Source: Thermodesulfobacteriota bacterium
GTDB taxonomy: Bacteria > Desulfobacterota > WTBG01 > CAIYCZ01 > CAIRTM01
Reading direction: 5' to 3'
Assembly: GCA_028278025.1 (NCBI GenBank)
Contig: JANQFE010000024.1
Coordinates: 75,128 to 139,127 of the forward strand
Length of the DNA stretch: 64,000 nucleotides
Within the stretch, counting starts at the first letter, position 1, and each line of letters opens with the position of its first letter. Below the pieces are notes generated by a model. It saw only the letters and a list, made by a program, of their open reading frames with translations, ran no database searches and had not been told where the DNA came from. This document shows positions 17,201 to 35,807 of the stretch, in pieces. A program made the translations under genes and the position numbers.

Positions 17201-19152
17201 GGCGAAACGTCTTTTAATAAAAGATAGCCTAAATCCCGAGTTTGGCCCTTTTCATATTCAAAGTGATCCTTATTACTCTCACCTGAGTGGACAAAAGTTT
17301 CACAGGTCACCTGAGCAACTACCGGTTCGATTTCCAATCTAATTGAAAAGGGCTCTGAAGAGCCCGGTGCCCTGCCTTTTTGCTGCCAGTTAAGGGTGAG
17401 GGGTATATCCAGTTCACGGGCAGTCCTGGATGGTTTCATATTATTGATATCAACAATGGATTCGGGATCAGCCATAATCCAAAGGTCTTCTTCGGGCTGC
17501 ACAGTTACATCATCAAGGGATTTATCGCACTGATGACTGAATCCGTAAAACTTGTCATTACCGAGAGTCAGCCTGTCATATACATTCCAATCATCTGCTT
17601 CCTGAAGTATTATTTTTCTCATCCTGGCCTTTGTAGAAAGCCATCTGAGTTCCAGGGGTTTTTTCTTACGTTGATCAATAACACGGCATTTGCCGATTAC
17701 GACCCGACCCCGGGAATCTGTATTCAAATCGACTTTGACCGGATGCGGATCTTCGATTGCACTAATTTCAATTTCAGGTCTTGAGGGAACAATAAGCATA
17801 TATATAATCATGCCCAGGGCGAGCGAAACTAAAACCACGATTATGGCGGTTCTTACATTGTTTTTGAAAATCTTTTGTTTTGTATAATAATCGGCGATTT
17901 TTTTCTGACTCCACTCTGGGTGATTGCCCATCATTTCATCGGTGACAGGATCATCTTTGTCTCCCCCAATATATAAAATATCTTCGATAGTAACCGGGAT
18001 TTTGTTTTTAACCTTTACGATCTGGCCGCCGTATATCCGGTCGTTTAACCTGAAGGAACCCTCAACCTCTATCCGATCAGGGAACCTGCTGCGATCAAAA
18101 CCATTCAAATAAATTGCCTGCAAAGCTTTTAAAGGTTTAACAGGCATTTCATCATCTATCCCCCTGCCGCACAATTTATAACTGTAATGAAGCGGCACCA
18201 GATCAGGATAAAATTCCTTTAGCCTCTGACTCAATTCCAGATTAATAGTAGAAGCATATGTGCCGTCGGTCTGCCGCATGAGCGTTGCAGCAGGAATAAG
18301 GTCAAAAACCGGATAGAACCCGAATGATTTTATAGGTTTTACTTCCGTTATCAGGACCTTAATGGGGAGTATTTTGTTGTCAAGGAAATATGTCTTGGTA
18401 TCCTCATTGATCTGGTTTAGATTTGTACTCAGGTAAATACTGCTTTCATAAACGCCGTACACATAGTTTGAATTGATTTTGCGAAACACATCCAGCAGAT
18501 AATCAAAGCCTTTTATTCTTTGATGCTTCATTAAATCACGTATCTCGGAGGCATCCATACCGGGTTTGTTGAGAATTTCGTCCGAAATACGGACAATAAA
18601 GGTCCGGCTAAAAGGTGGTGGGTCCTTCAGGTCTCTGTATAACTCGCCGCTTTTACAAATAGCCATGGGTATGGCCGCGGTTACCACGGTCCAGTTTTGA
18701 ATCTTTCCCCTGCCTCTTTCATATTCTTCGAAGGGTATACTTTTAAGGCGGTTAAATGAAAAGTCCGACTCAAAAGATTTTTTTATTTTTCCCTTTGAAA
18801 TGTAATTGCTTCTAAAGTCAGGATAATTATTAGGAAGGCCGAAGAGGTAAAAAGAAACGTAATCCCTGTCGCGGTCAAAGATTATTGATCCAAATTTGTC
18901 ATAATCCTTCTTTAATATCTTAGGCAAAACATTTGTTAAAAAATGACTTAATCGCTTCCTGGCAGCATACTCGTCTCCGTAAGTTAATAATTCGATCTTG
19001 TCTCGAAATGTTCCCGACTGGTCAAGGAGAATAATAATATGATTTGCACCCGATGACGAAGCAATTGCTTGTCCAGCAGTAAAAACCAAAAAAGACACAA
19101 ATATAGAAAACAAAAGAATTTTTCTTAATTGTGATGATATAAATAAATGCAT
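14281..19152 (-). CDS. VWA domain fused through a membrane segment to an Hsp70/actin-like ATPase
   Basis: 1623 residues. Signal peptide (about 1-31); VWA domain starting at HIIILLDQSGT with a MIDAS-like DQSGT at 44-48; membrane segment about 436-455; a long beta-rich region (460-960); then an Hsp70/actin-type domain from 965. The latter shows phosphate-1 ISVDFGTSA (969-974), phosphate-2 LIYDIGAGTLDVS near 1190, and an adenosine-type motif FSGRTAQLPGLKERI near 1420. In this topology the VWA faces the periplasm and the ATPase the cytoplasm. The ATPase lacks an obvious DnaK substrate-binding domain, and its fusion to VWA is unusual. Overlaps the next gene by ATGA. Domain calls are secure by motif; the role is inferred. 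Confidence 0.88.
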   Translation of the reverse strand: MHLFISSQLRKILLFSIFVSFLVFTAGQAIASSSGANHIIILLDQSGTFRDKIELLTYGDEYAARKRLSHFLTNVLPKILKKDYDKFGSIIFDRDRDYVSFYLFGLPNNYPDFRSNYISKGKIKKSFESDFSFNRLKSIPFEEYERGRGKIQNWTVVTAAIPMAICKSGELYRDLKDPPPFSRTFIVRISDEILNKPGMDASEIRDLMKHQRIKGFDYLLDVFRKINSNYVYGVYESSIYLSTNLNQINEDTKTYFLDNKILPIKVLITEVKPIKSFGFYPVFDLIPAATLMRQTDGTYASTINLELSQRLKEFYPDLVPLHYSYKLCGRGIDDEMPVKPLKALQAIYLNGFDRSRFPDRIEVEGSFRLNDRIYGGQIVKVKNKIPVTIEDILYIGGDKDDPVTDEMMGNHPEWSQKKIADYYTKQKIFKNNVRTAIIVVLVSLALGMIIYMLIVPSRPEIEISAIEDPHPVKVDLNTDSRGRVVIGKCRVIDQRKKKPLELRWLSTKARMRKIILQEADDWNVYDRLTLGNDKFYGFSHQCDKSLDDVTVQPEEDLWIMADPESIVDINNMKPSRTARELDIPLTLNWQQKGRAPGSSEPFSIRLEIEPVVAQVTCETFVHSGESNKDHFEYEKGQTRDLGYLLLKDVSPKSFKTPVDIQLSVKLERLDEIDDEFQRDWVVDGITIKKPDIAVDDVGSQLDPAQEDMIHISGKISKEGIQIPLQIDFSKLSAPFPGGDKYRLRIASVRGSEHIQFPKELDSICVLPNKKEAELYLNIKYSAKEDDPGIPIPLRTPSGIKLPAYDIDLYEQKGYIKIDEDALATNPNRSLQLFTLELGNQATSGEDTIMVKVTGSENKIYCSGIKEVKGKNLSLISVETDNEAEEDLVVFNLNRTFSSDSIDSCEKLTFYLKTGKTKFESGAEEGKINATFKITYWINHKDGSQEENIFELRMAIKVTKEPGPQQISVDFGTSAIAVAFAANMGQVLDGTIDDSSECLVPLHEKLNVAAIEEDPYFIPSILNINIPDGNAEDYTISLPASAAELANSPDTNTLVSYLKQHIALNHREINLQNGRKQIRLDELLAKVYDKLASDYFSPLITEKLPDFGKCKRMIITHPNSFLYNHVEFMKECISRGFPQCKFLDSISESDAVTFWYYTYRQKLIIGNKPPPPDETVLIYDIGAGTLDVSLRKIRRHQADGKVGKLESIDLLSMHTLHGAGNRVDQILADLIHRKLLRLTNDLADINFKYACYISGPPPNIPDKDKKLAYSKSLISMKNGLGNLKKDMTSFYAKNKKNIDAVMLWLPFKHSTEPFQFDKQKINKQESEWRKDLPDKYGISLEGRYPKIALKFSDIQAALEPFYKENVDEVLDVVLRNKEGYFEIDTLIFSGRTAQLPGLKERIKQRLGEIYNSEKTIFCPVLDAKQLKAAVSMGALAWAMNSGERELFKKYPIFGVFGIAWYDGNKWSWKTAFRHDESVSSKTIKGEGLPYYEWSYVLDSRFCDRLLFLQSYCASPESFFDSNKDEQSGQSFQDFVFNKNYFNQLAELNDAEIKEFTSLTDTELKISMTSKYRNTRFGEPSIIVKVSGSKKTESLNDEVPLMETDFTASDWWPFNMFQEKNERKI

Positions 19153-19170: not shown

Positions 19171-20532
19171 TTAGTTACCTGAAAGAATTTCAAAACGAAT
19201 CTCGACAGCTTTCATGGATTGAGTGGCTCTACTGTGTTTGTCATCGTCATCCCCCATTCCTTTACCTGTACACTCATCTATAGAATCCATAAAATTCTTG
19301 AAATGTTCTTTGTGTGAAAACAATGCAGCCTTTAACATTCTATCTTTAACTGCATTTGCTCTTCTTTGTGAAACGATTTTATTTCTTTGTTTCCGAGACG
19401 CTTGGCTGGAATACTCTGAGAAACCCTTATCGTCAGCATACCCAAAGATACTTATAGCTAATTGCTTTTGCTCATTTTCAATTAATTCAACAATTTCATT
19501 TACAAGACCATTGACATGTATCTTCATTTGAGGCGTAAGCTCATAATCACCGTTTTTATTATAAGGTGGCAATATATAAGAATAAAATTCTTTTTTATCT
19601 GATTTTATTCTTTTAAAATTTTTACCTTCATACATTTTTTTGCTAACCAAACTATAACTATTTATCATTATTTTATTATTTTTTAATATTGAATAAGGAT
19701 TTATTCTTATATAATATACATTTTTATTTGTATTTAACTTTATATGGCTATAATTAGTAAAATTATTTCTAGTATTATAATCAAATCTTATCTTAGTATT
19801 ATTGTCTTTAAACTGAAAACATTGTGTATTTTTTATTTCTGGATTCATGAAATAATGTGGTGAATCCTCAGAAATATCTAACAGTTTTTTGAATTCTGAT
19901 GATAACGCTAGTTCAGTGTCGATTTCACAAATAAATTCTTTCTCCTCTGTTAAAAATTTAAAATCACTTCTTAATTGATTAAATGTTTCGCTTTCTATTT
20001 TCATCTCCATCATAACTTTGATTGGATTAGAGTATGACGGAAATACATGAACTTTATATATATAATCCTCCTTTTCAATACAATCATCTGATTCATTCAT
20101 AAAAACCTTATGTGCAAAAAGAATATATTTGCTATTCTCTTTAAAAATTTCAAATATACTATTAATTGGTCTGTTTCTATTTGGACTATTATTGAATTTA
20201 CAATAAATATACATAGAAACAAAATTATTTAAATTTAACATAAAATAATTATCTTTATTTGTTGCTAAGTCAACACATTCTTCATCTTCAGGCTTATTTT
20301 TTTTAAATCTACTTTCATCTTTATAGAATGTATAATTAATATCTTTTCTATTCTTTTTGATTTTGAAAGCATGAAATACTCTCGTAACAGCTCCATCTTT
20401 AGTTTCTTCTTTTAATTCTTCTTTTAAATATAAGAAATTTATATTATTTTGAGCATAAAGCAATTCTGTTTGATTAAATAAAGCTGAAATGCTAAAATTT
20501 AAATAAATCAAAAAAATAATTTTTTTTACCAT
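19171..20532 (-). CDS. OmpA-like peptidoglycan-binding envelope protein
   Basis: 453 residues from ATG 20532, chosen because it starts a clean signal peptide (MVKKIIFLIY to LLYAQ); in-frame upstream starts exist at 20544 and 20577. Residues about 330-450 carry an OmpA-like motif (ISIFGYADDKGFSEYSSQAS followed by a basic SQRRANAVKDRM), which binds peptidoglycan in that family. The central part is very rich in Asn, Lys and Ile, and the DNA here is far more AT-rich than the flanking genes, suggesting a different origin or relaxed selection. The gene overlaps the end of the preceding gene by about 40 bases. It probably anchors the complex to the cell wall. Confidence 0.82.
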   Translation of the reverse strand: MVKKIIFLIYLNFSISALFNQTELLYAQNNINFLYLKEELKEETKDGAVTRVFHAFKIKKNRKDINYTFYKDESRFKKNKPEDEECVDLATNKDNYFMLNLNNFVSMYIYCKFNNSPNRNRPINSIFEIFKENSKYILFAHKVFMNESDDCIEKEDYIYKVHVFPSYSNPIKVMMEMKIESETFNQLRSDFKFLTEEKEFICEIDTELALSSEFKKLLDISEDSPHYFMNPEIKNTQCFQFKDNNTKIRFDYNTRNNFTNYSHIKLNTNKNVYYIRINPYSILKNNKIMINSYSLVSKKMYEGKNFKRIKSDKKEFYSYILPPYNKNGDYELTPQMKIHVNGLVNEIVELIENEQKQLAISIFGYADDKGFSEYSSQASRKQRNKIVSQRRANAVKDRMLKAALFSHKEHFKNFMDSIDECTGKGMGDDDDKHSRATQSMKAVEIRFEILSGN

Positions 20533-21130
20533 TTTCTTTTTCATCCTCAGTATGTTTTTTTTCTTTTTTATTTTCAAAATTAACTAAAACAACAAAATAT
20601 TTATTATTTATGTCTATAGTTAAATCATTATTAAACAAAGATTTAAATTTTGATGATATATCGTCTATTGGAGTTTTATCTATTTGAAGTTTTGATGTTT
20701 TAAACATTTTATTGTTTGCCAATATTACAACCTCTACTAATTCATGGTAAGCTTCAGGCAAATTAATTATTTTTATATGGAAACAAAAATCCATTATTCT
20801 TCCAGATGATCTGAACTTTCTTTGTTTGCCGAAATCATTACCATGAAAATATATTGATTCTCTTTCATTTAATTTTGATATTGTTAATTTTACAGCACAT
20901 CTATTAATAATATAATTGTATGTATATGAATCTTCCAAAATTTTCACCTGATCACTCAGGTGTTTATTTTGTTCATTAATGCCCTCAAATGAACAGTAAG
21001 CATACCAGGCCAAAACACCTGTCAAGATTGCTATTATTGCTTTTAGAATGACTATGCACCATTGAGGAGTCGCTGATTTTTCACAACAATCCACAATCGA
21101 TTGCTTCAATCCTTTAATCTCTTGCTCCAT
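20492..21130 (-). CDS. small single-pass membrane protein, AT-rich gene
   Basis: 212 residues: cytoplasmic N-terminus with two adjacent cysteines, a membrane segment at about 26-47, a short coiled coil (50-70), then a beta-rich soluble domain and a lysine/glutamate-rich tail. The AT-rich composition is shared with the overlapping OmpA-like gene downstream, so the two may have been acquired together. It starts 18 bases after the 1347-residue VWA-tubulin gene. No family recognised. Confidence 0.68.
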   Translation of the reverse strand: MEQEIKGLKQSIVDCCEKSATPQWCIVILKAIIAILTGVLAWYAYCSFEGINEQNKHLSDQVKILEDSYTYNYIINRCAVKLTISKLNERESIYFHGNDFGKQRKFRSSGRIMDFCFHIKIINLPEAYHELVEVVILANNKMFKTSKLQIDKTPIDDISSKFKSLFNNDLTIDINNKYFVVLVNFENKKEKKHTEDEKENGKKNYFFDLFKF

Positions 21131-21148: not shown

Positions 21149-24100
21149 TTAAATTGCTTTTCCACCGGCATGCATAATAATCTTCAATAACATTATTACC
21201 TCATTCAAAAACTCATCCCGGATTCTTATTGCCTCATCCGGAATGTTACTACCACTAACAAAATCCGTAGCAGCTTTAACCAAATCAGATATACTGCAAT
21301 CAATCTCTGGAATTGTTTTTGATGAATCGAAGACATCACGCCGGGTGATAACGTAGGATGTCATGGCCTTTTCCAGGTCGAGTTGGTCGCGGGCCTGGGT
21401 CAAATAATAAACAGTGCCGTTATTCTTAATGGCCAGGCACCTGTCAACTTCGGTTTCCGGTATGCGTTTTAGCAGCTTCCCGGTTAGGAAAAGATATAGA
21501 AACTGCTGCAAGCGGTCCATGTTGCCGAAGTATTGGACAAAGCGGGGAGAGAAGCGGCCCTGCGCATCCAGTCTGCCGATTTCACGTTTATAAAACTCCT
21601 CCAGCATGCATGCTTTCTGCTCTTCTTCAAAAAGGTAGGGAAGTTTATGATCATCACCCGACTCAAACGATGCAAGACTCTTTGTGTATGACAGAGATTC
21701 CGTTATGGGTATGTGGGTTTCAAAAGAAAGCCTCCCCCTGCAAATCGGCACAGGATAAAGATCATCAAATTTTTCTGCGTCACTGTTTGAAGACTGCACT
21801 TCAATCGCTTTTGATGAAACGAATCTTTCAATAAAATCCCCTTGGGCGTTTATGCCCGGTCCCCGGATAAAGGCATTTTCACTGAGGAAACCGGTCATAT
21901 ACCGTTCTGCGGCAATGTCGGCAAATGCTTCAAAATACTTTTGAGGTTTGTCGTCAAGTCCCGACATCTCCAAAATAAAATCAAGGAGCTCCTCATTGTT
22001 AACGGGATTATGGAAACTCCTCGTGATGTCGGAATGAACGGCAAGCTCAAGCAGCCCTTCAAGGTTAAGTTCGCTGACCTGACTTACATCCGAACTCCAG
22101 AAAGATTCTTCAATTTGATCAAAGCCGGTCTCACTGACCTTCCATTCAAAACGGTTAAGATACTCCCCGTCTTCAATAAGCCCGGCAAAATGCATGTTGT
22201 ATAACCGGTCAAGAAATTCTTTATCGGCAACGTACTTTATGGTTTCAAGCTCCAGGCATTTTTGCAGATGGTTTTCTGCCGCTTTCAAATTCTCAAACAA
22301 ACGCCGGGCCATTCCCTTAAATCCTGGGGGCAAGCCCTGCTGCTGGTCTTTTGGGAAACCGTCAGCCAAGCAGAAAAACCATCGCCTGACCTGCTTATGA
22401 ATGCTTTCCGTAACTACTTTATAAGCTTCAATCAGATCCAGAAGATTGTCCACCCGTGATTCCTCAAAACAGACCTGGTCTTCATAGGCAATGCTGTAGA
22501 TGGGAATTCGCTGCAAGTTAACCGGAACCGCGGCCAGCATATCTTCCAGTTTTGCCAGGTGCTGCATTAACCTGATTATCCCGCCGCTCCGTTCTTCTTC
22601 TCCTTCCGCAGCAGCACCGTTTAAAATCCAAAGCGCCCATTCCATAATCCTGCGAAGAGCCAGCAGCATGTTTTTTTTCAGATAAAACCGCGCCGGCTCA
22701 CCCTGTGCCTGCATGCCTGCTTCTGCCAGGGCTTTCTGCCACGGCCGAATGATGTTGTCCGTCTCAATGCCGGATGAAAGTTCGGCCAGTTCGGAAATAG
22801 CTGAAAAAACCGGGGGACACGGCGATACGAGCTGTCGCCCGACAAACAGCTCTTTTAAACCTGTCCGGGTCGTAAGCACGCCGTCAGAAGGGACGAACAG
22901 ATTGTTTACCATTTTCAGCCGGTTAAATTCAGTACTGAAAAGCTCGAATATGAAACGAAGCCGCAGGTAATTTAAGATATTGGCAACCGGTAACTTAATA
23001 GAACGGCATCCGATGTTGATGATTCCTGCTTTCCCTGTTTTAATTGCCTGGCGTGCTGCTTCAGGATTGATTTCTGTTTCAAAGCGATTCCGTAAAGGAT
23101 TTAGTTGGGGTGCGAACTGGGACATAATATCGGCAACCATCGGGTACAGCGACAGACTTTCGTTACCGCCGCGAGCCGGATCAATCAAAAAGTTATGATC
23201 AAACAAAGCAAACCGGTTCAACCGGACATTACCGGCCGGGTACTGAATTGAGAGCGGAAAATCACTGTTAACGATAAAACGTTCCCACTCACGCAGAAAC
23301 GCAAGGGAATTCAGATTGTAGATATCCCCATCATCTTCCCGCATCTGAAATCCGGACCTGCCGCAGATGAAGCTGTAAGTAGTAATATGCTCTTTCTCTT
23401 TAAATCGTCCGGCAAACCAAATCGCCGTGTCAAGAAGAATACCCGAGGAACAGCCCCCTACGGTTGATCCGGTAAAGAAAAGCTGACACCCTTCCTCTTT
23501 AAGCAATTCTTCGATAAATGAAGCTGCTTGCTCTAAAGAAGCGGGACCGCGATTGTCATTTTCTTGCATGGCCTTAAAATAAGACAGGCGGCCCAGGTGT
23601 CTGAACCTATTGGTTCCATAACTCAGGTTAAACGTTTCCCTGTTGAGACTCTCTGTTGTCTGCCGGTCATACCAGCCGGCATAGTCCGGATGTGTATTAA
23701 TAATCTCCTTGTGAAAGCTGTATAATTCAGAGGGTAAAGCGCAGATCTCGTTTTCGGAAAGACCGATGCCCCCCCATTCTATCCGGCTCCTGTCTCCTGC
23801 ACAGCCGGTATCAATGCAAAGAAGTCGTATGCGGTCGGCAGGGAACGTGCCCATATTAAGGTCGGTTACTATTTTTTTAAAATAGGTCAGTACCCACCGG
23901 CCGGTATGTCCAAAACCCACAGCAAGTGTCGGCCGGAATTGCATTTCTTTCTTTTCCTCAAGCTTGACCAGTTCATTCGGGGTAACTGTAAGGGATTGAA
24001 ACTCTTTCCGTTCCGGCGGGGGTTTTACCTCGATTCCGGACTTGAGGCCGCGAAACATTGAAAGCAGTATCCAGAAAACCGGATTAAGCAGAACAAACCA

Positions 24101-25192
24101 TACCCACCACGCAAACGCCGGCAGAACCAGGGCATAGGGATTATCATTGGATTTTACGCCAGGCTGCTTGATCTGGTCCATATCATGCCAGACCATATCA
24201 GCCGACTTCGGACTTATCTTATGCCAGCCGAGTCTGTAGGGGACCAGCTGGTAAGGGACTTCCTGGGCCGTGGTTTGCAGAAAAGGCAAAAACCAGTGAA
24301 TTTCCCATGACTGCGATTTTACTGATTCCGGCATGTGGACTGTAGAAAAATTACCGATAATAAATGCCTGGTCATTTATATATTCCGTAATCATTGCCCG
24401 TGTTCCCCCCGGACCTTCAATGCCGGCGGCAATGCTTTCATAAAAACGCATCAGATCTTCTCTGTCCGTTGCGTTATAATATTCTTTGTCGCCCTTGCTT
24501 CCGGGTCTTTCTGAGGCCAATTCCTCCATCAGCACCGTATTGGCCTCACCGATCCCGATACATATAATTCTGATCCCTTTTTGTATTATCTGCCGGCCCA
24601 CTTGCAAAATTTCCGGATCACCGACTCCCCGACCGTTGTGCGGATAACCATCCGACAGCAGGACAATGATTTCCTCGGCCTCTTCACGATGGGAAGCTTG
24701 AAGTAACTGTTCCGCCCGTTCAAGGCCAAAGCCGATGTCCGTAGCACCGCCGCCCCGTATCTTTGTTATACCGTTAACCAAAGCATGTTTTTTATCTGTT
24801 ATGTCACAACAGGTCTCCACCTCGTCATCATAACAGACAACCCCCACCCTGCAGGTTTTCAGATCCACCATATTGACAAATTTAATACAGGCCTCTTTTG
24901 CTTTTGCCAGACGGCTGCCCGGAGCACTTCCGCCCATGCTTTCCGAGCGGTCAATTACCAGTACAACATGATAGGTTTTTTGTTCGGTTGGTCTTGTTTT
25001 TTTCATGCCCCTGGCATACAGCCTCACATTAAAAGGACTGTCCTTAAACAGTATTTTCCGGTCTGATACTCTGGTCAGCAGCCGTGAACGACGCTCAGGA
25101 CTACACCGTCTTGTCCCCCAGAGGAAAACAAGCAGCCCGACGACAACATACAGGCCGAAAAGGGCCAGAAGTATGATTGCTAAATATGACAT
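21149..25192 (-). CDS. membrane-anchored VWA-tubulin-like fusion (FtsZl type), 1347 aa
   Basis: Membrane segment at 4-26; VWA domain about 73-260 with MIDAS DRSES (81-85), the GGGATD threonine near 151 and LLSDGYP (Asp 181); hydrophobic stretch 355-380; then a tubulin/FtsZ-like domain from 422. That domain has the first glycine loop GFGHTG (426-431) and a tubulin-signature T4-type loop TGSTVGGCSSG ending at 584. The first loop is less canonical than in the other two tubulin-like proteins here. The C-terminal 700 residues are helical and unrecognised. Basic residues follow both hydrophobic stretches, so membrane topology is ambiguous. It lies 5 bases after the 1277-residue paralogue gene. Confidence 0.87.
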   Translation of the reverse strand: MSYLAIILLALFGLYVVVGLLVFLWGTRRCSPERRSRLLTRVSDRKILFKDSPFNVRLYARGMKKTRPTEQKTYHVVLVIDRSESMGGSAPGSRLAKAKEACIKFVNMVDLKTCRVGVVCYDDEVETCCDITDKKHALVNGITKIRGGGATDIGFGLERAEQLLQASHREEAEEIIVLLSDGYPHNGRGVGDPEILQVGRQIIQKGIRIICIGIGEANTVLMEELASERPGSKGDKEYYNATDREDLMRFYESIAAGIEGPGGTRAMITEYINDQAFIIGNFSTVHMPESVKSQSWEIHWFLPFLQTTAQEVPYQLVPYRLGWHKISPKSADMVWHDMDQIKQPGVKSNDNPYALVLPAFAWWVWFVLLNPVFWILLSMFRGLKSGIEVKPPPERKEFQSLTVTPNELVKLEEKKEMQFRPTLAVGFGHTGRWVLTYFKKIVTDLNMGTFPADRIRLLCIDTGCAGDRSRIEWGGIGLSENEICALPSELYSFHKEIINTHPDYAGWYDRQTTESLNRETFNLSYGTNRFRHLGRLSYFKAMQENDNRGPASLEQAASFIEELLKEEGCQLFFTGSTVGGCSSGILLDTAIWFAGRFKEKEHITTYSFICGRSGFQMREDDGDIYNLNSLAFLREWERFIVNSDFPLSIQYPAGNVRLNRFALFDHNFLIDPARGGNESLSLYPMVADIMSQFAPQLNPLRNRFETEINPEAARQAIKTGKAGIINIGCRSIKLPVANILNYLRLRFIFELFSTEFNRLKMVNNLFVPSDGVLTTRTGLKELFVGRQLVSPCPPVFSAISELAELSSGIETDNIIRPWQKALAEAGMQAQGEPARFYLKKNMLLALRRIMEWALWILNGAAAEGEEERSGGIIRLMQHLAKLEDMLAAVPVNLQRIPIYSIAYEDQVCFEESRVDNLLDLIEAYKVVTESIHKQVRRWFFCLADGFPKDQQQGLPPGFKGMARRLFENLKAAENHLQKCLELETIKYVADKEFLDRLYNMHFAGLIEDGEYLNRFEWKVSETGFDQIEESFWSSDVSQVSELNLEGLLELAVHSDITRSFHNPVNNEELLDFILEMSGLDDKPQKYFEAFADIAAERYMTGFLSENAFIRGPGINAQGDFIERFVSSKAIEVQSSNSDAEKFDDLYPVPICRGRLSFETHIPITESLSYTKSLASFESGDDHKLPYLFEEEQKACMLEEFYKREIGRLDAQGRFSPRFVQYFGNMDRLQQFLYLFLTGKLLKRIPETEVDRCLAIKNNGTVYYLTQARDQLDLEKAMTSYVITRRDVFDSSKTIPEIDCSISDLVKAATDFVSGSNIPDEAIRIRDEFLNEVIMLLKIIMHAGGKAI

Positions 25193-25197
25193 GGGAC

Positions 25198-28100
25198 CTA
25201 TTTGCTTTCTAGTTTCTCTTTTTCAAGGTATATAATTTCCACAAGAAGCTGTGAGAGTTCATTTTCAATAGATGGAAGCTCGCTGGTATCAAAATTCTCA
25301 ACTTCTTCTTCCGCGTATTCAAGTATTTCAATTTTTCGTTGACGGTCCAGCGCTTGCCATTCTTTGTTGATCATACTTGGATCAAGTTGATTCCCGTTAC
25401 TGTCTCGCCTTTTTAGCAGCAAAGCCGAAAGTGCTCTGTACCGGCCGTCGCTGCCGGCCCGGTTCAAGAGATATACTTGTCCATTATAAAAGAGTGCCCA
25501 ATAGGTAAAAAGCCCGTCACGTTTTTTTCGAAAATACTGCATGCCTATGGCCCGGACCATGGTTTCATAGCCAAACGGGGACCGGGCAAGAGATCGCAAG
25601 GCGGGGGAGAAAAACTCTGTTTTGTGACCAGTCCTTTTCTCTCGTCTCTGCATTAAATGCACGGTCTGCTGTTCCGCAGGAAAATTAAAGTCCAGATCTG
25701 CCCTGTCGGCTGTCGCTTCCGCTCCGGAAATGCCGCCAGTTGTTTGGTCGGGCTGGATCGAAAGCAGTGAAATAATCAGCGGATTATTTATTTTTGCTTC
25801 TTTGACAATTTTGGGTGCCTGAATCCGTTTTTGAATTTGTGATTTCAGTTGGTCTATCGCCTTGTCGTCCCCTTCTTTAGGAAAAGTCAAAAGCACATAG
25901 TCACCCTGTAATTCAGTCCGGGTAAGGTTTTTTTCTATTTCAAGGTCTGAAGTCAATTTGTCAAAAAGGGAAATTGTGCTGATGTCCGGAAAGAGCGATT
26001 CGGTAATAAATGAAAAGAAGGCATCGTAAATTTTCTTCGGGGTGCTCTGATCGGGAAGAAAAACATTGTCTTCCTGTCCTGAAAACCTGAACCGAATATC
26101 AAGGTTGTCGGCTATCTGCCAGCGGCAGCGTGCTGCAAACGGCGATTCATTGTCCTCAAGAACCGGTTTAATCCGTTTTTCCCAGAGGGTATCAAACCGG
26201 TAATCAGGATTTCCGCTATTCTCCCAGACATAGAGCCGGCAGGGAATTTTCTGCAACTGTTCTTTGTGCTTTTCAAGCCGGCTGTGGCGGGTATGGAGAA
26301 ACCGGTAGAGCCCGTCCCGCCGGTCAAAAGATGCCGACAACTCTCCTTCACGTTCAACCAGAACATGGTTCCAAACCATAAGATTTGACAAAATTTTCTG
26401 ATGAAGCTCGATATATTCCTGACCATCAACAGCGTTGTCCGGTTTTGCCTCAAAAGCCGTTATGTCCCTGAAAAGTTCCATCAGGGACCCGAACCGCCCC
26501 ATTCTTTGCTGGATCTGTTGTGACAGTAGTAAATTTTCATCCGGCTCAGCACCGTTGAGCCACAGTTCAATAACTGCCTGATAAAACTTTTTTGCCTGCC
26601 CTGTATCGGGAAGCTCCGTGTTTTGCAGCACCGACGGTTGAATATCTTCAAAGACCAGGGTATGATAACTGGCGAGTTTTCGGCCCTCAGCCGGATCACA
26701 CAAAATGGTGTAATAATTTCTTTCCTTCCAGGTGTCGATTACCTGTTTTGCAGTAAGTGTTTTTTTGGCGAAAAAACGGCCCTCCGAGCAGTCAAAGGCA
26801 ATGTGCTGTTCAAGAACAGCCCGCAGTATGCGGAGGGTTGTCTCCTCAATCATCATACCGACCGGAAAACGGACGGAACTGATGCTCGCTGCATGCCAGA
26901 CACAGTCATGGTTATTGTCCTTTTGTTTTAAAATTCTGTAAGAGGGATCACTCAATAGATTTAAAAGTTCGCTTTTCTGGCTTTCTTCACAAAAAAGAAA
27001 CAGAACATCCGCAACCGAAGCGGGATGATCCTTATCGCCAAATAGGAATATCCTGTCAAAAAGGGGCATATCCGTATCTTCATATTTTAAACCGCCGTTT
27101 CCATCTGCGTTCACCATCGGAGCTGCATGTCCACGGGAATATTGATGTCGACATAATTCCTCGATAAAAGCGGCATGGTTTCTGCCGGATTCGCCGGCCA
27201 GTCCGGTCCGGCTCAGAAAAGCATAGTGGGGAACACTCGGCCCAATGCCCCTCGCGGTTAAACATTTCTTTATCAGGTGTGCAGCATCAATAAAACTACC
27301 GCTTGAGGTGCCGCCGGTAGTGCTGCCCACCATGATAAGTTGGACGTCTTTCTTATCACCTATCCACTCCCCAATTCTTTTGTCGATCTTTAACCAGACC
27401 GGTTCCGGGCTTTCCAGGTCTTTTAATAGTGCCAATCGACCCATCTGTCGGTTCCCTTGGGTTCCCTGTCGAAGGGTCTGCTGCTCAGCATCCAGACGGG
27501 CAAGGGTATCATGATCAAGCCAGTGACTGTAATATGGAAAATTCTGTGGCGCTGTATGAATTTCATTAATAGCATTTCGCAAATCATAGATGTCGGGAAA
27601 GAAAAACCGTTCATCGACTGCCAGTCGGGCATCACAAAATTCAGGCGGCTGCGTTTCTCTGTCCGTGTCTAGGCCCAGAAAAAGAAACTGATCGCTTGCA
27701 TCCCAAGGCATAAGTTCTTTAAGAGTATGCTTCATATGGCACATAACATTCAGGCCGCACCCCCCAATACCGACAATAATTGTCGGAGCAGGATGGATAA
27801 CCGGTTTTTTCACGGGCGGGGCCGGATTAAAAGAAGCGGTCGGGAGACTGCCGACAGAAATATCTGCCAGGTTTTTTATCCTGACCTCAGCCCTCCTTCC
27901 AATACAGCAGCACAAAAAATAGAGCAGTGCCGGTAAATAGAGCCAAAAGAGCAGCCAGGGTGAAACAATAAGCAGTATGGGATTCAAATTGGAACGCATT
28001 ATCTGTTCCCGGCCGGACGGGTTTTTAAACGATACTGTGCCTTGCTGGGAAACAAGGTGATGGATACCGATTTTTTTGGGAATCACATTGTACCTGACAG

Positions 28101-29031
28101 TGGATTCCTTGGCGTACAGTATGGGCAGGCCCCATTCCAACAGCCCTTTGTCGCTGTCCGCTGTAACGAGGTAGAACAGATTTTTATCTTCCGGCAGGTA
28201 ATCAAATGCGCGGTTGTTATAGAACTCCCGAACAGTTCCGCCCCTGCCCACGCTATTCAGAAAACCCAGGTTATCAATCATCTTCAGGAACAATTGGTAT
28301 AAATGGTTTACATCAGGATAACAGCAATAGGAAAAATGGGGGGCCGTGAAGATTGTCTCCCAAAACCGCTCAATGACCGTGTAACCGATCCCCACGCCAA
28401 CCAGTTTAATGTTTTCTGCTTCGGCATTTGCCGCGATTTTAACCAGGGGGTCAATGTGTTCGTCCTGACCATCCGAGATAACGATAATATACCTGCTCGT
28501 TTTGTCGGGTGAAGGATTTGAGGTTAATTCATTAAGTGCTTCAGCAACCGCCCGGGCAATACTGGTTCCTCCCCCGCCTCCTACCGGTTTCATACCCTTA
28601 ATAAAGCTCTCAAAATCGCTGGAAAGCGGTGAAACAATTAGCGGTTGGTGATCAAAAAACATTAAGGCCATACGAGTATTAGTGCCGGAAACGAGATGTG
28701 CAAAATTTCTGGCCGCACCCAAAGCTTTTGATAGGTTGCTGTCAGGATTGTCGACCGAACCCATTGAGCCTGAATAATCTATGCAAAAGACCACATCAAG
28801 CCGGGGGGGCTCCACAGGTTTGCCGCCGGGATTAAACACCAGTGCTGCCTCAACAGGATTGTCCACCCATGCCGATATAGGGGATATCTGGCGACTAATC
28901 GCTCCCGGTGTAGCCAGGCTGTTTGCGATCAGCACATAAGAATATGCCAGCCCAATCAGCAAACTGGGTACGAAGACGAGGAACCAAAAAAGCCGGCGGC
29001 GTTTGGGGGTATCTATTAAATAACGTAACAT
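25198..29031 (-). CDS. membrane-anchored VWA-tubulin-like fusion (FtsZl type), 1277 aa
   Basis: Basic N-terminus, membrane segment about 13-35, VWA domain 77-250 (MIDAS DYSGS at 85-89, GGGGGTS near 151-157, VISDGQD with Asp 187), second membrane segment 351-376 followed by RR, then a tubulin-like domain with GIGGCG (421-426) and T4-type loop VGSTTGGTSSG ending at 578. The positive-inside rule puts the VWA in the periplasm and the tubulin fold in the cytoplasm. A long helical C-terminal extension follows. Same architecture as the 1347-residue product, so likely paralogues or subunits of a hetero-assembly. No obvious ribosome-binding site precedes ATG 29031. Confidence 0.9.
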   Translation of the reverse strand: MLRYLIDTPKRRRLFWFLVFVPSLLIGLAYSYVLIANSLATPGAISRQISPISAWVDNPVEAALVFNPGGKPVEPPRLDVVFCIDYSGSMGSVDNPDSNLSKALGAARNFAHLVSGTNTRMALMFFDHQPLIVSPLSSDFESFIKGMKPVGGGGGTSIARAVAEALNELTSNPSPDKTSRYIIVISDGQDEHIDPLVKIAANAEAENIKLVGVGIGYTVIERFWETIFTAPHFSYCCYPDVNHLYQLFLKMIDNLGFLNSVGRGGTVREFYNNRAFDYLPEDKNLFYLVTADSDKGLLEWGLPILYAKESTVRYNVIPKKIGIHHLVSQQGTVSFKNPSGREQIMRSNLNPILLIVSPWLLFWLYLPALLYFLCCCIGRRAEVRIKNLADISVGSLPTASFNPAPPVKKPVIHPAPTIIVGIGGCGLNVMCHMKHTLKELMPWDASDQFLFLGLDTDRETQPPEFCDARLAVDERFFFPDIYDLRNAINEIHTAPQNFPYYSHWLDHDTLARLDAEQQTLRQGTQGNRQMGRLALLKDLESPEPVWLKIDKRIGEWIGDKKDVQLIMVGSTTGGTSSGSFIDAAHLIKKCLTARGIGPSVPHYAFLSRTGLAGESGRNHAAFIEELCRHQYSRGHAAPMVNADGNGGLKYEDTDMPLFDRIFLFGDKDHPASVADVLFLFCEESQKSELLNLLSDPSYRILKQKDNNHDCVWHAASISSVRFPVGMMIEETTLRILRAVLEQHIAFDCSEGRFFAKKTLTAKQVIDTWKERNYYTILCDPAEGRKLASYHTLVFEDIQPSVLQNTELPDTGQAKKFYQAVIELWLNGAEPDENLLLSQQIQQRMGRFGSLMELFRDITAFEAKPDNAVDGQEYIELHQKILSNLMVWNHVLVEREGELSASFDRRDGLYRFLHTRHSRLEKHKEQLQKIPCRLYVWENSGNPDYRFDTLWEKRIKPVLEDNESPFAARCRWQIADNLDIRFRFSGQEDNVFLPDQSTPKKIYDAFFSFITESLFPDISTISLFDKLTSDLEIEKNLTRTELQGDYVLLTFPKEGDDKAIDQLKSQIQKRIQAPKIVKEAKINNPLIISLLSIQPDQTTGGISGAEATADRADLDFNFPAEQQTVHLMQRREKRTGHKTEFFSPALRSLARSPFGYETMVRAIGMQYFRKKRDGLFTYWALFYNGQVYLLNRAGSDGRYRALSALLLKRRDSNGNQLDPSMINKEWQALDRQRKIEILEYAEEEVENFDTSELPSIENELSQLLVEIIYLEKEKLESK

Positions 29032-29048: not shown

Positions 29049-32000
29049 TTAAATCCTGCTTGACCTTTTTGATGGCCGGGTTTTTCTTATATTCTCTTTT
29101 CGTCTATACTCATTTGCCCTTTCTTCTAAGAGGTTGCAGAATATCTTCCTAAAATTTTCCTCCACAGCCCTGTTCTGGTCCGAACTGTAAAAACAAAAGT
29201 CCAAATCACTACTCTCAATCCTCGCTAACAACTTATTGAACGCTCTTTGGAAGTAGTCCTCTTCATTTTCAACGTCCTTGGCCTTAATCTCAGGATCAGC
29301 TAGACATACCTCTATTGATTCTCTTTTAACCTCGGTTAATTTATCATATGAAGGCAGAGAACTAAGAGAACTCAGCGGATTCTTGTTTGGAACCTTATTG
29401 GTAAAATTAATAACAGCATCAAAAATTCGACTTCCATCAGAAAGATAAAAACAATTTTTATGGTCCTTTTTATCTCTTTCCAAAGCATCCAGTGCCTGGT
29501 CGCCCAGCCAGAGATAGAATCTCTCTTTTCCTTGTTCAAACTCTTGTGTCTCGATGACGCCTAATGCAAAAAGGTCATAAAAGAGGTTTAGATAATCGGT
29601 ATTGGAAAACAGCTGCGTTACATGATATGATGCCAGATCAGTAATATCGTTTAATGCCTTTTTAGGTGCCAGTATATTCATTTCATAATCGACACAGGCC
29701 TGTTCCTCAGGGAAGATGTGATAGATATCCATCATCCAAGAGCGGCTGCGGATTTTTTCCAAATAGGCATCCTGGTAGGCCTTGGTGGTGTTGCAGGTTT
29801 TGGAAACAATCCCATGGACAACCTTGATATAGCCCAGGATCTCGGAGGCCTCGTAGTCTTCAATACGGTTATAAGCACCGAATTTATTAGTCACTTTCTG
29901 TAGTTCCCTTTCCAGCTCGTCCATAAATGTCTTTTCTGCAGGGGTGTTCGGTGACTTATAGAAAAGGTAATGTGAAATCATAACATTGGTTTCATCATAT
30001 TTGAGATAGGTGGAGCATTTGCTGAAATGCTGCGCAATCTGCTTTGCAGCTTCTTCTATCGGCAACGATTTTTTGGAACGGTTGGGGAGATAGTTCAAAA
30101 GATAATCAAAAATATCACGACTCCCCAGTTCATGGTGGCAATCCTCATCCGCCCTTTTGAGAAGGTTTTCACAAAGGTCCCGGGCTTTGACCACGTCAAT
30201 TTTTTCTGAGAAAAGCCTTAAATTTAAATTTTTGTCATCTTTTATCTGCCATTCCAGTGTTTCCAGCCAGCTTCTCACTTTCTCATCAAAATCGATCAGG
30301 CCACACAGATATTCTTCATAGCCGCCCATGTCGGTTACCGGGTGCAGTTTGTCTTTGCCCATTTCTCCGGGAAGCCCGAAGCTGATGTTGGGGCTTTGTG
30401 CCAGTTGTCTCAACTCGGCATTGAGGGCGGCTTCCTGCTCCACAATTTTGTTCCAAACGCTTTGGTCGTGGGTGACGATCTCATTTCTCCAGCGCTCACA
30501 TTCGGACTTCCATTGAGAGACCTTATTGCGTGCTCCGATAAGGGTTGCCATGATGTATCGGTTGGCAATCGCGGCCTTGGTTGTTTTTAAAAGGGACCGT
30601 TCCTTCTTGAGGTACGCCTGCTGCTCTTTCTTCAGGTTTCCAAAAAGAAATCCGCCGCTTGTTTCATTTATTTTTAACAGTGCATTGGCTACTTTACCCT
30701 GGTCATTGTCCCAGTCCTGTTTAATTTTATAGTGTCTGTCTTCCAGCCGTCTCAGCATGGGCTCAATAAAAGCTGTCCCCATCTGGTCCAGAGCCTTGAG
30801 CAAGTAGCCGAAACGGCCTCTCTTGGCATCAATGGCTCCGGGTGTTAGTTTTGTAACAATGAAATTTTTAAGTTTTTCTTCAAAGCTGTTCACCCAGAAG
30901 TCGCTAAAGTTTCTTAGTTTGTTGTGTATCTCACCGGTGTTGCCGTTAATGGCTTCATCCATGGGGCCGTGAAACTTTTCTTTGGCTTCAGCGACCGCTT
31001 TTGTAATGTTATCCCGGTCGGCATCATCACTGGTACACAAAGCATCCAGGCCGTCAAAATTCATTTCCTGCAGCTGTCTGATATCGGTGGTTTTATCCCT
31101 TGGGACACAGATATTAAGTAACCGGTTCATGCTGCTCCGCTGGTTCATAAAATTGTTTTCCCTCTCCGCATCCCATTTCTGCAAAGTGGTGTCATTTAGA
31201 AAGAAGCTCTGGCTTAGAACATTATGCCAGCCGATAAAAAAGTCTTTTGCTTCTTCCAGGACCGTCTCCTGAATCTGTTTTTTATCCTTTCCTGATTCCT
31301 TGCCTTCAGGATAAAAATCAGCCCGCAGGAGATTGTTTTCCTGATCGGGCTTGAAAAGTTCCGCCAGAAACGTTTTTGAAAGCTTCAGAGATAGTTTCTT
31401 CAAGAACCTTTTTCTGGGAAACATGATCCTGTGGGTTGTAAAGGTTGAAAAGAAGGGCTCAAATTGGGGAAAATTTGCCTGAATAATACCGGCATCACCG
31501 GACTTTGTCATGAGTGATATATTGGACAATTCTTCTGCGCTGGTCGACAAGTTATTCTGTATTCTTCTAATAGCACTGTTTACGTTAACCACGTCTTCAT
31601 CCAATTTTTTCCCGGTTTCTTTTTCTGTGAACAGCTCAATAATATCGGAAATCGACGGATAGAGCACATTGGCACGCAGTTTTTCTCCACTAAAAACACT
31701 GTCACTGGGCATATCGATTAAAAACACCCCATCAAAGGCACTTTCCTCAATAGTAGCCATACGCTGTTCATTATAGACAACCGTGAGAGGAGACTGAGGA
31801 GTATAGGTCTGGATCAAGCGGTGGAGCTCACGCAAGACGGCATAAGCCCGTTCGGCCGTATGCTGAAACTCCTGGTTGCCTTTCAGATCACTGAAAGCCG
31901 ACTCCAGGACCAGAAACAAAAAAATGTGAAGTTTTGCTCCCTTTCTCCTGGCAAGCTCACGCAGTACAATGGTCGTGTCCAGAAAACCGCCGGAACCGGT

Positions 32001-32507
32001 ACCTCCCACAAGCGAGCAGGCAATATGGACATTCAACGTCTCATTGGTGCCGATAGAGGCAAAAACATTACTCAGTTTATTCCAGATTGTATTGATATTT
32101 TGAAAAACGGCCAGCCGGCCGATCTGGCGGTACTGACCGGCACCGGCTTCAAAGCTGAGCACTTTATCCGGAATCCGCAACTCGTTGATGAATTTTTTGG
32201 CCTTTACCCAGCGATATTTCTCATTATCACTGCCTTTATCAACTGTCAGGTTTCTGAGCAGGGTCTTTAAATTCTCTCCCTGGTAATGAATATATTCCGA
32301 CAGCTCAATCGGGACCTGGGTGAAAATCGTCTGGCCGCTTTGTCGGCTGGATTCTTCCTGGGCTTTCTCAACCTTATCAAATGAAAGGGTGTCAAGATAA
32401 ATATATTCTACAGTCTCTTCTTCTCGGTACAGGGAGAACTTATACTTCAGGTTTCTGATCGTATTGCCGCCGGTACCGCCTATTCCTATGACTAAATTAA
32501 CGCTCAT
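29049..32507 (-). CDS. soluble tubulin/FtsZ-like protein (tubulin_2/FtsZl type)
   Basis: 1152 residues, no signal peptide or membrane segment. The N-terminus has the nucleotide-binding loop VIGIGGTGGNT (6-16) and the best tubulin signature in the window, SLVGGTGSGGF with GGTGSG at 168-173. Ordinary FtsZ is about 350-400 residues; here the GTPase-type domain is followed by about 800 residues of helical, charged sequence. This matches the tubulin_2/FtsZ-like family described in neighbourhoods with VWA proteins and proposed to remodel membranes. It could be the polymer-forming core to which the two membrane-anchored paralogues add. A 41-base gap separates it from the upstream VWA gene. Confidence 0.9.
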   Translation of the reverse strand: MSVNLVIGIGGTGGNTIRNLKYKFSLYREEETVEYIYLDTLSFDKVEKAQEESSRQSGQTIFTQVPIELSEYIHYQGENLKTLLRNLTVDKGSDNEKYRWVKAKKFINELRIPDKVLSFEAGAGQYRQIGRLAVFQNINTIWNKLSNVFASIGTNETLNVHIACSLVGGTGSGGFLDTTIVLRELARRKGAKLHIFLFLVLESAFSDLKGNQEFQHTAERAYAVLRELHRLIQTYTPQSPLTVVYNEQRMATIEESAFDGVFLIDMPSDSVFSGEKLRANVLYPSISDIIELFTEKETGKKLDEDVVNVNSAIRRIQNNLSTSAEELSNISLMTKSGDAGIIQANFPQFEPFFSTFTTHRIMFPRKRFLKKLSLKLSKTFLAELFKPDQENNLLRADFYPEGKESGKDKKQIQETVLEEAKDFFIGWHNVLSQSFFLNDTTLQKWDAERENNFMNQRSSMNRLLNICVPRDKTTDIRQLQEMNFDGLDALCTSDDADRDNITKAVAEAKEKFHGPMDEAINGNTGEIHNKLRNFSDFWVNSFEEKLKNFIVTKLTPGAIDAKRGRFGYLLKALDQMGTAFIEPMLRRLEDRHYKIKQDWDNDQGKVANALLKINETSGGFLFGNLKKEQQAYLKKERSLLKTTKAAIANRYIMATLIGARNKVSQWKSECERWRNEIVTHDQSVWNKIVEQEAALNAELRQLAQSPNISFGLPGEMGKDKLHPVTDMGGYEEYLCGLIDFDEKVRSWLETLEWQIKDDKNLNLRLFSEKIDVVKARDLCENLLKRADEDCHHELGSRDIFDYLLNYLPNRSKKSLPIEEAAKQIAQHFSKCSTYLKYDETNVMISHYLFYKSPNTPAEKTFMDELERELQKVTNKFGAYNRIEDYEASEILGYIKVVHGIVSKTCNTTKAYQDAYLEKIRSRSWMMDIYHIFPEEQACVDYEMNILAPKKALNDITDLASYHVTQLFSNTDYLNLFYDLFALGVIETQEFEQGKERFYLWLGDQALDALERDKKDHKNCFYLSDGSRIFDAVINFTNKVPNKNPLSSLSSLPSYDKLTEVKRESIEVCLADPEIKAKDVENEEDYFQRAFNKLLARIESSDLDFCFYSSDQNRAVEENFRKIFCNLLEERANEYRRKENIRKTRPSKRSSRI

Positions 32508-34898: not shown

Positions 34899-35807
34899 CT
34901 AGAAAATTTTTATTGGCTGCCCGGGATAAAACTTTTGATCAACGGACAAGCATAATTCGTAAACTCCTTTTTTTGCAAATCGGACTTTTAAAACAAACTT
35001 TACATCATCGAGCCATTCAACCTTGATAGGAATTTTATCCTGGACCTTGGCCTTAACAAATCCCCGGTAGTGACGCTGGAAAAAAAAGTCTATGTTCCGG
35101 GTGCCCTTAGGCTTCAGTAGACTTCCTCGGAAAATAAAGGTGCTGCCTTTTTTAGCCCGTAGGGGAATATCATCGTCGAAGATGGCAACCGTAGCGCTGA
35201 AATCCTGGGTTATGTAAACATCTTTATCGTTGGCGTATACTCCCACGCCGATATGGGTAAAATCTTTTTTCAGGATGCTGGCACGTGAATCAGGTTCATT
35301 CATCCAGCCGTTAATTGCCTCTCTTGCCAACTGTTCTTGGTCTGTCGGGGCATTAACAAATCTAAAAATATTTTCCGAGATGCCGCCATAAAGTCGACTG
35401 TATAGAACTATCTTCCTGTCAGTTGGTGAAAGCCCTTCAGGAGATTCATTAGAAAAATAGTTACGCTCACCCATATCTCGGCTATGATTATAGGCCATGT
35501 TGGTTAAACCTTTATCCACTGCCAGGGGTGGAAGGTTGTTCTGGGTTCTATACTCATTAGTGTATTTAATAATCAGCTCGACGGTCTGATTGTCATTTTT
35601 GACAGGCACCGATTTATATTTCACATCCCAAATAACCTGATTGGTTTGTTGTTCAGTTACATTACTCTTTTCCTCAATGTGCTCAGGAGGGAAAAAACGG
35701 TTTTTAATTTTTAGCAGAGGTTCATTTAAAAATATTATTAAGGCGAACAGCAAAAAATACGGGGCACTGAATAATAAAAATATTCGCCTCAACTTAAACT
35801 GTGTCAT
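34899..35807 (-). CDS. CAP/SCP-domain protein, first gene of the cluster
   Basis: 302 residues. N-terminal signal anchor (about 8-28), then a CAP (cysteine-rich secretory protein, PR-1-like) domain at about 75-208 with the hallmark residues His 108 (YNHSRDMG), Glu 145 (GISENI) and His 185 (THIGVGV), and a C-terminal beta domain (210-302). CAP domains act outside the membrane, binding lipids, glycans or cations. The ribosome-binding site TGAGGATC lies upstream of ATG 35807. It is the most upstream gene of the cluster, so the cluster promoter should lie in 35808-36000; I could not identify convincing -10/-35 boxes. Confidence 0.85.
   Translation of the reverse strand: MTQFKLRRIFLLFSAPYFLLFALIIFLNEPLLKIKNRFFPPEHIEEKSNVTEQQTNQVIWDVKYKSVPVKNDNQTVELIIKYTNEYRTQNNLPPLAVDKGLTNMAYNHSRDMGERNYFSNESPEGLSPTDRKIVLYSRLYGGISENIFRFVNAPTDQEQLAREAINGWMNEPDSRASILKKDFTHIGVGVYANDKDVYITQDFSATVAIFDDDIPLRAKKGSTFIFRGSLLKPKGTRNIDFFFQRHYRGFVKAKVQDKIPIKVEWLDDVKFVLKVRFAKKGVYELCLSVDQKFYPGQPIKIF

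Follow-up and report, generated by a model that had tools for sequence, protein, structure and literature searches.

Membrane-spanning VWA-tubulin fusion proteins next to a soluble tubulin in a Thermodesulfobacteriota operon

Two neighbouring genes within a 64,000-nt stretch of contig JANQFE010000024.1 from a Thermodesulfobacteriota bacterium (the window, to whose positions all coordinates refer) encode the proteins P1 and P2, in each of which a VWA domain, a membrane segment and a tubulin-like domain are joined in a single chain, and they follow the gene of a soluble tubulin-like protein, P3. We propose that P1 and P2 are membrane-spanning second tubulins of the FtsZl1/Tubulin_2 family that link a VWA domain in the cell envelope to polymers of P3, a reading to which we give an even chance.

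Results

Domain architecture of P1 and P2

The three proteins and the domains of the fused pair are as follows (aa, amino acids; TM, transmembrane segment; MIDAS, metal ion-dependent adhesion site).

21149..25192, minus strand: P1, 1347 aa, TM - VWA - membrane segment - tubulin-like - long helical C-terminus (Pfam; AlphaFold2 model of aa 400-1347)
24449..24967, minus strand: P1 VWA domain, first MIDAS motif DRSES at aa 81 (Pfam PF00092; motif)
24062..24118, minus strand: P1 second hydrophobic segment, aa 359-377 (hydropathy)
22949..23920, minus strand: P1 tubulin-like domain, aa 425-748 (Pfam PF13809; Foldseek to CetZ/tubulin/FtsZ)
25198..29031, minus strand: P2, 1277 aa, TM - VWA - membrane segment - tubulin-like - C-terminus (Pfam VWA and Tubulin_2)
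28336..28797, minus strand: P2 VWA domain, first MIDAS motif DYSGS at aa 85 (Pfam PF00092; motif)
27922..27978, minus strand: P2 second hydrophobic segment, aa 352-370 (hydropathy and flanking charges)
26812..27780, minus strand: P2 tubulin-like domain, aa 418-740 (Pfam PF13809)
29049..32507, minus strand: P3, soluble tubulin-like protein, T1 GIGGTG, T4 GGTGSG (Pfam Tubulin_2, E 3.7e-45)

The original prediction had read a VWA domain, a membrane segment and a tubulin-type domain in both products, and all of these are present, the domains being detected above the curated Pfam cut-offs and accompanied by hydrophobic segments. P1 matches VWA (PF00092) with E 5.3e-21 at aa 76-248 and Tubulin_2 (PF13809) with E 5.6e-17, while P2 matches VWA_2 with E 1.1e-15, VWA with E 2.7e-13 (aa 79-232) and Tubulin_2 with E 2.3e-23. 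The Tubulin_2 bit scores are 62.5 for P1, 83.5 for P2 and 155.2 for P3 at a cut-off of 27. The tubulin domain is N-terminal in P3, in which no hydrophobic segment was found, whereas it begins only at aa 425 and aa 418 in P1 and P2, following the VWA domain and the membrane segment. A further N-terminal hydrophobic segment precedes the VWA domain (aa 6-24 in P1, aa 17-35 in P2), and both proteins have an intact first MIDAS motif. P1 and P2 are 25% identical over their full length (MAFFT) and their BLAST alignment spans the VWA domain into the tubulin domain, showing that they are diverged paralogues. The charges in P2 are +5 before the first TM, +1 after it and +3 after the second, suggesting a regular topology with the VWA domain outside and the tubulin domain inside.

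The tubulin fold of P1

In an AlphaFold2 model of P1 aa 400-1347, built on a 67-row alignment, the region following the second membrane segment adopts a tubulin fold, as had been predicted. The block-mean predicted local distance difference test (pLDDT) score is mostly 70-94 over model residues 21-310 and lower beyond. Foldseek finds CetZ1 as best match (E 5.6e-07), followed by CetZ2, tubulins and Aquifex FtsZ, and VIA-align, which re-ranks Foldseek's own match list, gives Z 22-23 for tubulins with a root-mean-square deviation of 3.3-4.2 over 292-322 residues, with BtubABC among its structural matches. In these structural alignments the sequence identity between P1 and tubulins is about 8-14%. 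From model residue 377 to about 720 the model consists mostly of helices of low confidence, and VIA-align carries the match on to model residue 791, where the block-mean pLDDT is 42-62, hinting, as a lead only, at a tubulin C-terminal domain following a helical insertion. The tubulin domain of P2 is assigned by its Pfam match. As hhalign scores P1 (99.9%) and P2 (100%) against a local family alignment which itself contains both proteins, the independent evidence for the fold consists of Pfam and the model. For P3, a sequence search found no related solved structure.

Altered nucleotide loops in both fusion proteins

We read the loop columns in the 67-sequence family alignment, in which T1 is GxGxxG in nearly all rows. 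The loops are the following.

23900..23917, minus strand: P1 T1 loop GFGHTG, His where 65 of 67 rows have Gly
23441..23458, minus strand: P1 T4 loop GGCSSG, Cys where 64 of 67 have Thr and Ser where 64 of 67 have Gly
27754..27771, minus strand: P2 T1 loop GIGGCG, Cys where 55 of 67 rows have Thr
27298..27315, minus strand: P2 T4 loop GGTSSG, Ser where 64 of 67 rows have Gly

The original prediction had quoted precisely these loops next to canonical ones in P3, and P3 indeed reads GIGGTG in T1 and GGTGSG in T4. The loops of the fusion proteins are not coincidental glycine motifs, since they occupy the T1 and T4 positions of the alignment and the P1 model shows a tubulin fold. P1 departs from the family at three positions, with a His in T1 and both a Cys and a Ser in T4, and P2 at two, with a Cys in T1 and a Ser in T4. 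The Ser-for-Gly exchange in T4 occurs solely in P1 and P2 among the 67 aligned family members, and the family signature GGTG(S/T)G, present in P3, is found in neither of them. In the helix that follows T4, both retain the Asn (column N229) and the Glu (column E236) of the family.

The catalytic acidic motif of FtsZ in T7 is N-x-D-x-x-D. In the corresponding, loosely aligned region Asn is found in 47 of 67 rows and Glu at +2 in 36 of 67, and the position reads N-P-E in P1, D-P-S in P2 and N-V-N in P3, so that the FtsZ triad is not recognisable in the 67-row alignment, loose at this point, in either fusion protein or, given its N-V-N, in P3. Makarova & Koonin likewise state that T6-H7 of the FtsZl1 family could not be identified (PMC2875224). 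The original prediction of a graded set, one active polymeriser with two tethered subunits of which one might bind nucleotide more weakly, thus holds for the altered phosphate loops of the tethered pair and for a further erosion in other second tubulins described below, and has to be changed in that both tethered proteins, not one, have an unusual T4; calling P3 the one active polymeriser is not supported as stated, the FtsZ T7 triad being unrecognisable there too.

The loops also bear on a rather unlikely alternative, namely P1 and P2 being pseudo-GTPase receptors or scaffolds in which the tubulin fold would stay out of the filament and serve as a platform for the P3 C-terminus or other partners, the signal passing via a conformational change of the VWA domain. 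In its favour, T4 is altered in P1 and P2 and has disappeared from the other second tubulins compared, and T7 is not conserved; however, P1 and P2 have kept GxGxxG, most of T4 and the family residues N229 and E236, which is more than a free scaffold would need.

A second, degenerate tubulin often follows the soluble one

Judged by profile comparison, the gene after a soluble tubulin of this family often appears to encode a second, degenerate and usually membrane-linked tubulin. This is the case in five loci (L081, L093, L111, L113 and L152; hhalign 95.4-99.8%), with further cases in Chloroflexota regions (L233, L234, L235, L241 and L251). The hhalign comparison of downstream-gene groups was repeated for 17 of the 26 groups with the same result. 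As a control, single-sequence hhalign was run on 621 open reading frames (ORFs) of at least 250 aa, not being strong tubulins, from loci L064-L160. A probability above 20 was obtained for 10 of 59 immediate downstream genes versus 4 of 562 other ORFs (Fisher p 2e-8, the loci not being independent, as some share genus or class). Two of these four ORFs (L077, L078) come from loci fetched as Tubulin_2 matches, so keeping them is conservative. A rank test over all hhalign probabilities is weaker (p 0.014), because most downstream genes show nothing.

In nine second tubulins outside the window, GxGxxG in T1 is kept in seven and GGTGSG in T4 in none. P1 and P2 are the best preserved of the second tubulins compared. 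The best match of P3 is in the Chloroflexota locus L081, where a soluble tubulin likewise precedes a TM-tubulin.

The fusion is rare and recurs in Chloroflexota

The VWA-membrane-tubulin fusion is a rare, recurrent architecture. Within the phylum of the window, P1 found VWA-only matches outside its own genome among 58 genomes (own included) and P2 found VWA-only or tubulin-only matches among 297, neither search giving another fusion. Of 395 genomes scanned in the phylum, 14, including that of the window, contain Tubulin_2, and no fusion was seen in 15 regions from the 13 others or in 2 regions from further genomes chosen for long VWA frames. Plasmid records held no relative of P2, two-row alignments searched against genome_contigs and viral_contigs gave pattern matches with no confirmed relative, and none of 99 tubulin ORFs in loci L064-L160 carries a VWA domain.

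In Chloroflexota, the phylum of L081, 46 of 400 genomes match Tubulin_2, and two of the 20 regions read there (from 20 of the 46 matching genomes) contain fusions. The first, in genome G721 (L252), is a protein of 1569 aa with a TM or signal segment, VWA at aa 111-269, a TM at 654 and tubulin at aa 738-1054, encoded downstream of a soluble tubulin; its VWA domain scores 24.1 bits (Pfam cut-off 23.8) and its tubulin domain 23.5 bits, below the Pfam cut-off of 27, with E 1.4e-16 for a local profile. The second, in genome G663 (L232:4299-14840), is one ORF of 3513 aa arranged as tubulin - TM - VWA - TMs - propeller - second tubulin, the chain comprising two Tubulin_2 domains, VWA, a WD40-like propeller and zinc ribbons. 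Degenerate fusions are under-counted, because the fused tubulin of G721 was not listed by the Pfam scan. In two further phyla Tubulin_2 is present in 62 of 245 and 80 of 251 genomes. A set of 114 loci, which took in matches from these phyla and from Chloroflexota as well as 16 additional regions, contained 104 tubulin ORFs and showed no fusion; as the sequence flanking many of the loci is short, fusions may have been truncated, and G663 itself, represented in this set by a short locus, does not appear as one.

These counts allow us to weigh a very improbable explanation, a recent local accident in which P4-like and P3-like genes of this lineage (P4 being the VWA protein encoded upstream of P3, see below) underwent fusion and duplication without any special function. 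No other fusion was found in the phylum, with 395 genomes scanned and the 13 other Tubulin_2 genomes read, as such an accident would predict, but P1 and P2 are only 25% identical, their ORFs and first MIDAS motifs are intact and the same architecture exists in Chloroflexota.

We observed further arrangements in the family. In the Chloroflexota loci L237, L238 and L239 the only tubulin found has TMs near aa 583-621 and the VWA-containing gene comes after, not before, it. A Clostridia metagenome-assembled genome has four Tubulin_2 genes in tandem (L143:6836-16957), and in L272, L314, L317 and L198 about 200-500 residues of another domain, for which no family was named, stand ahead of the tubulin domain. 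Fusions with kinases are known for FtsZl1 (PMC2875224).

The gene run and its neighbouring proteins

P1-P3 are part of a minus-strand gene run with short gaps extending from 35807 down to at least 14281, in the order CAP protein, P4, P3, P2, P1, small TM protein, OmpA-domain protein and P8. The genes of P1 and P2 are separated by 5 bases, and 17 bases lie between the end of P3 and P2 downstream of it. The other genes are the following.

34899..35807, minus strand: CAP-domain protein, first gene of the run (Pfam CAP, E 3.4e-21)
32549..34888, minus strand: P4, signal/TM - VWA - TM (aa 612-630) - tail (Pfam VWA_2, E 5e-12)
20492..21130, minus strand: small protein, one TM, no family (Pfam scan; hydrophobic segments)
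19171..20577, minus strand: OmpA-domain protein (Pfam OmpA, E 7e-07)
14281..19152, minus strand: P8, TM - TM - Hsp70/actin-like nucleotide-binding domain (hhalign)
12068..14284, minus strand: 738-aa protein, two TMs, no Pfam match above cut-off, overlapping P8 by 4 bases

P4 is a usual type of upstream partner of the soluble tubulin: elsewhere, 24 of 90 tubulin ORFs have a VWA gene directly upstream. The gene of the 738-aa protein probably belongs to the same operon. P8 has no Pfam match; its C-terminal part aligns with Hsp70 nucleotide-binding domains (hhalign 96.4%, E 1.3e-09) and contains the phosphate motifs DFGTS and DIGAGTLD; no relative was found in 296 other genomes of the phylum. A DQSGT motif hints at VWA in its N-terminal part, where hhalign is weak (10%), and we do not claim this domain. 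The plan of an outer domain, a TM and a nucleoside triphosphatase of cytoskeletal or chaperone fold is common to P1, P2 and partly P8.

Elsewhere in the window, the same run includes a protein of 1148 aa (8592-12038) with no family match above cut-off. Positions 6649-7812 encode ankyrin repeats and PEGA domains in one protein with an N-terminal hydrophobic segment, and at 53761-58426 genes for triosephosphate isomerase, phosphoglycerate kinase, GAPDH and 6-phosphofructokinase adjoin each other, named by eye from their translations.

Discussion

A model according to which P1 and P2 couple the envelope to P3

We favour a model in which a metal-binding VWA domain is flanked by two membrane segments and, in P2, would lie outside the cytoplasm according to the charges, and in which the tubulin domain of P1 or P2 contacts soluble P3 in the cytoplasm. 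P1 and P2 might be heteromeric subunits, or end or anchor subunits with weakened nucleotide turnover, co-assembling with P3, and binding by the VWA domain outside would set where P3 polymers start or attach, the signal thereby running inwards with membrane remodelling as putative output. P4 as a VWA-TM protein, the OmpA protein and P8 as a TM-Hsp70-like protein may belong to the same envelope complex. Judged from this anatomy, the most likely mechanism is that envelope-linked tubulins anchor or nucleate P3.

Several results weigh against this model. The charges of P1, none before the first TM, +5 after it and +3 after the second segment, would by the positive-inside rule place both VWA and tubulin inside, making the second segment a re-entrant loop; as the charges round the first TM disagree with a VWA domain outside the membrane, P1 could have either of two topologies. 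A second tubulin is not general, because the Bacillota downstream genes ('Neo' and 'Turi' groups) give no tubulin signal (hhalign 0.1-0.2%). For the downstream protein of the Acidobacteriota locus L086 a model of low confidence (pLDDT 43) was obtained, whose Foldseek list contains gamma-tubulin and TubZ along with other folds and no match at E <= 0.001. Given the low pLDDT, the mixed list and an alignment with likely tubulins, we count it as no evidence.

The phylogeny is divided, both trees being quick trees with long branches. One of 34 rows has a group separate from the soluble tubulins (Shimodaira-Hasegawa-like approximate likelihood ratio test 83), which consists of P1 and P2, the fused tubulins of the two Chloroflexota genomes and the L081 and L241 second tubulins, that of L233 falling outside. 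In a 62-row tree six second tubulins group (L233, L113, L081, L252, L241, L111; support 91), those of L234, L235 and L093 lie elsewhere and P1, P2 and the L232 second tubulin are outside the group. The second-tubulin grouping is weak and prone to long-branch effects, which adds to the points against the model. Clade tests rejected neither the four fusion tubulins (p 0.16) nor P1 with P2 (p 0.65) nor P1, P2 and P3 (p 0.42), and none of them shows a clade. The trees are compatible with an old second lineage and are no proof of it.

More tentatively, and with the balance tilting somewhat against it, many FtsZl1 systems might be two-tubulin machines made of a soluble tubulin whose GTP loops are intact and a dedicated, nucleotide-eroded, membrane-anchored partner hitherto overlooked, which in a few lineages would have been fused to a VWA sensor, yielding a one-chain receptor by which a ligand bound in the envelope would act on filament nucleation or anchoring, with P8 adding an Hsp70/actin-like arm. 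If such a second-tubulin class exists, tubulin systems whose subunits are unequal, with one anchored in the membrane, would be common in bacteria. The role of the FtsZl1 family has been open since 2010 (PMC2875224), and because one chain joins VWA, membrane segment and tubulin covalently, the predicted VWA-tubulin link becomes testable.

Comparison with known systems

The closest known systems are the FtsZl1 operons, for which Makarova & Koonin 2010 describe VWA, GTPase and OmpA neighbours and predict membrane remodelling (PMC2875224). According to their account of the family, the FtsZ-like domain is N-terminal in the majority and VWA a separate protein, one archaeal FtsZl1 is joined to a TM region (the disrupted SSO1376) and a P-loop GTPase is frequent, not universal. 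The present operon resembles these in the Tubulin_2 domains of P1, P2 and P3, the VWA protein P4, the OmpA protein (19171-20577) and a helical C-terminal region, and differs from them in that VWA, membrane segment and tubulin form one chain, twice. No GTPase family was found among the window genes scanned, where a diverged one could be missed. A survey of FtsZ/tubulin evolution published in 2023 puts the Tubulin_2 proteins to one side, regarding their architecture as irregular (PMC9871819). The FtsZl1 family and its VWA/OmpA operons are already known; our search of the open-access literature, subscription papers being outside its scope, found no report of VWA-membrane-tubulin fusions or of a degenerate tubulin partner.

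Kaur et al. 2020 name vWA and HSP70 proteins as components of GAP1-N2 GTPase systems together with tubulins, for which Firmicutes versions have two genes (PMC7159879), and the window likewise has all three kinds near each other. This raises the improbable explanation that the operon is a predicted conflict (anti-invader) system related to these GTPase-centric systems, whose tubulin, vWA and HSP70 components would, by prediction, come together upon infection. The patchy spread of the genes would agree with it, 57 other genomes having given no relative of P1 apart from VWA-only matches and 296 others none of P8. Yet membership in the GAP1-N2/DO-GTPase systems has to be rejected, as neither GAP1-N2 nor DO-GTPase2 (PF19993) gave a match in the 93.5% complete genome, and the defence models of PADLOC yield nothing for P1-P4, with one weak match for P8.

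BatA/BatB-type proteins resemble P1 and P2 in having VWA at the membrane, and P2 matches NCBIfam BatB with E 2.8e-07, far below cut-off; these families are not known to contain a tubulin domain. Systems with more than one tubulin type are found in alpha/beta-tubulin, gamma-tubulin and BtubA/B, and in analogy to alpha/beta-tubulin a subunit with weaker turnover would here act like the non-exchanging subunit. Unlike these tubulins, P1 and P2 span the membrane and carry an attached VWA domain, and the identity of P1 with tubulins is about 8-14%. The second-tubulin class, if real, would provide an independent case to compare with alpha/beta- and gamma-tubulin.

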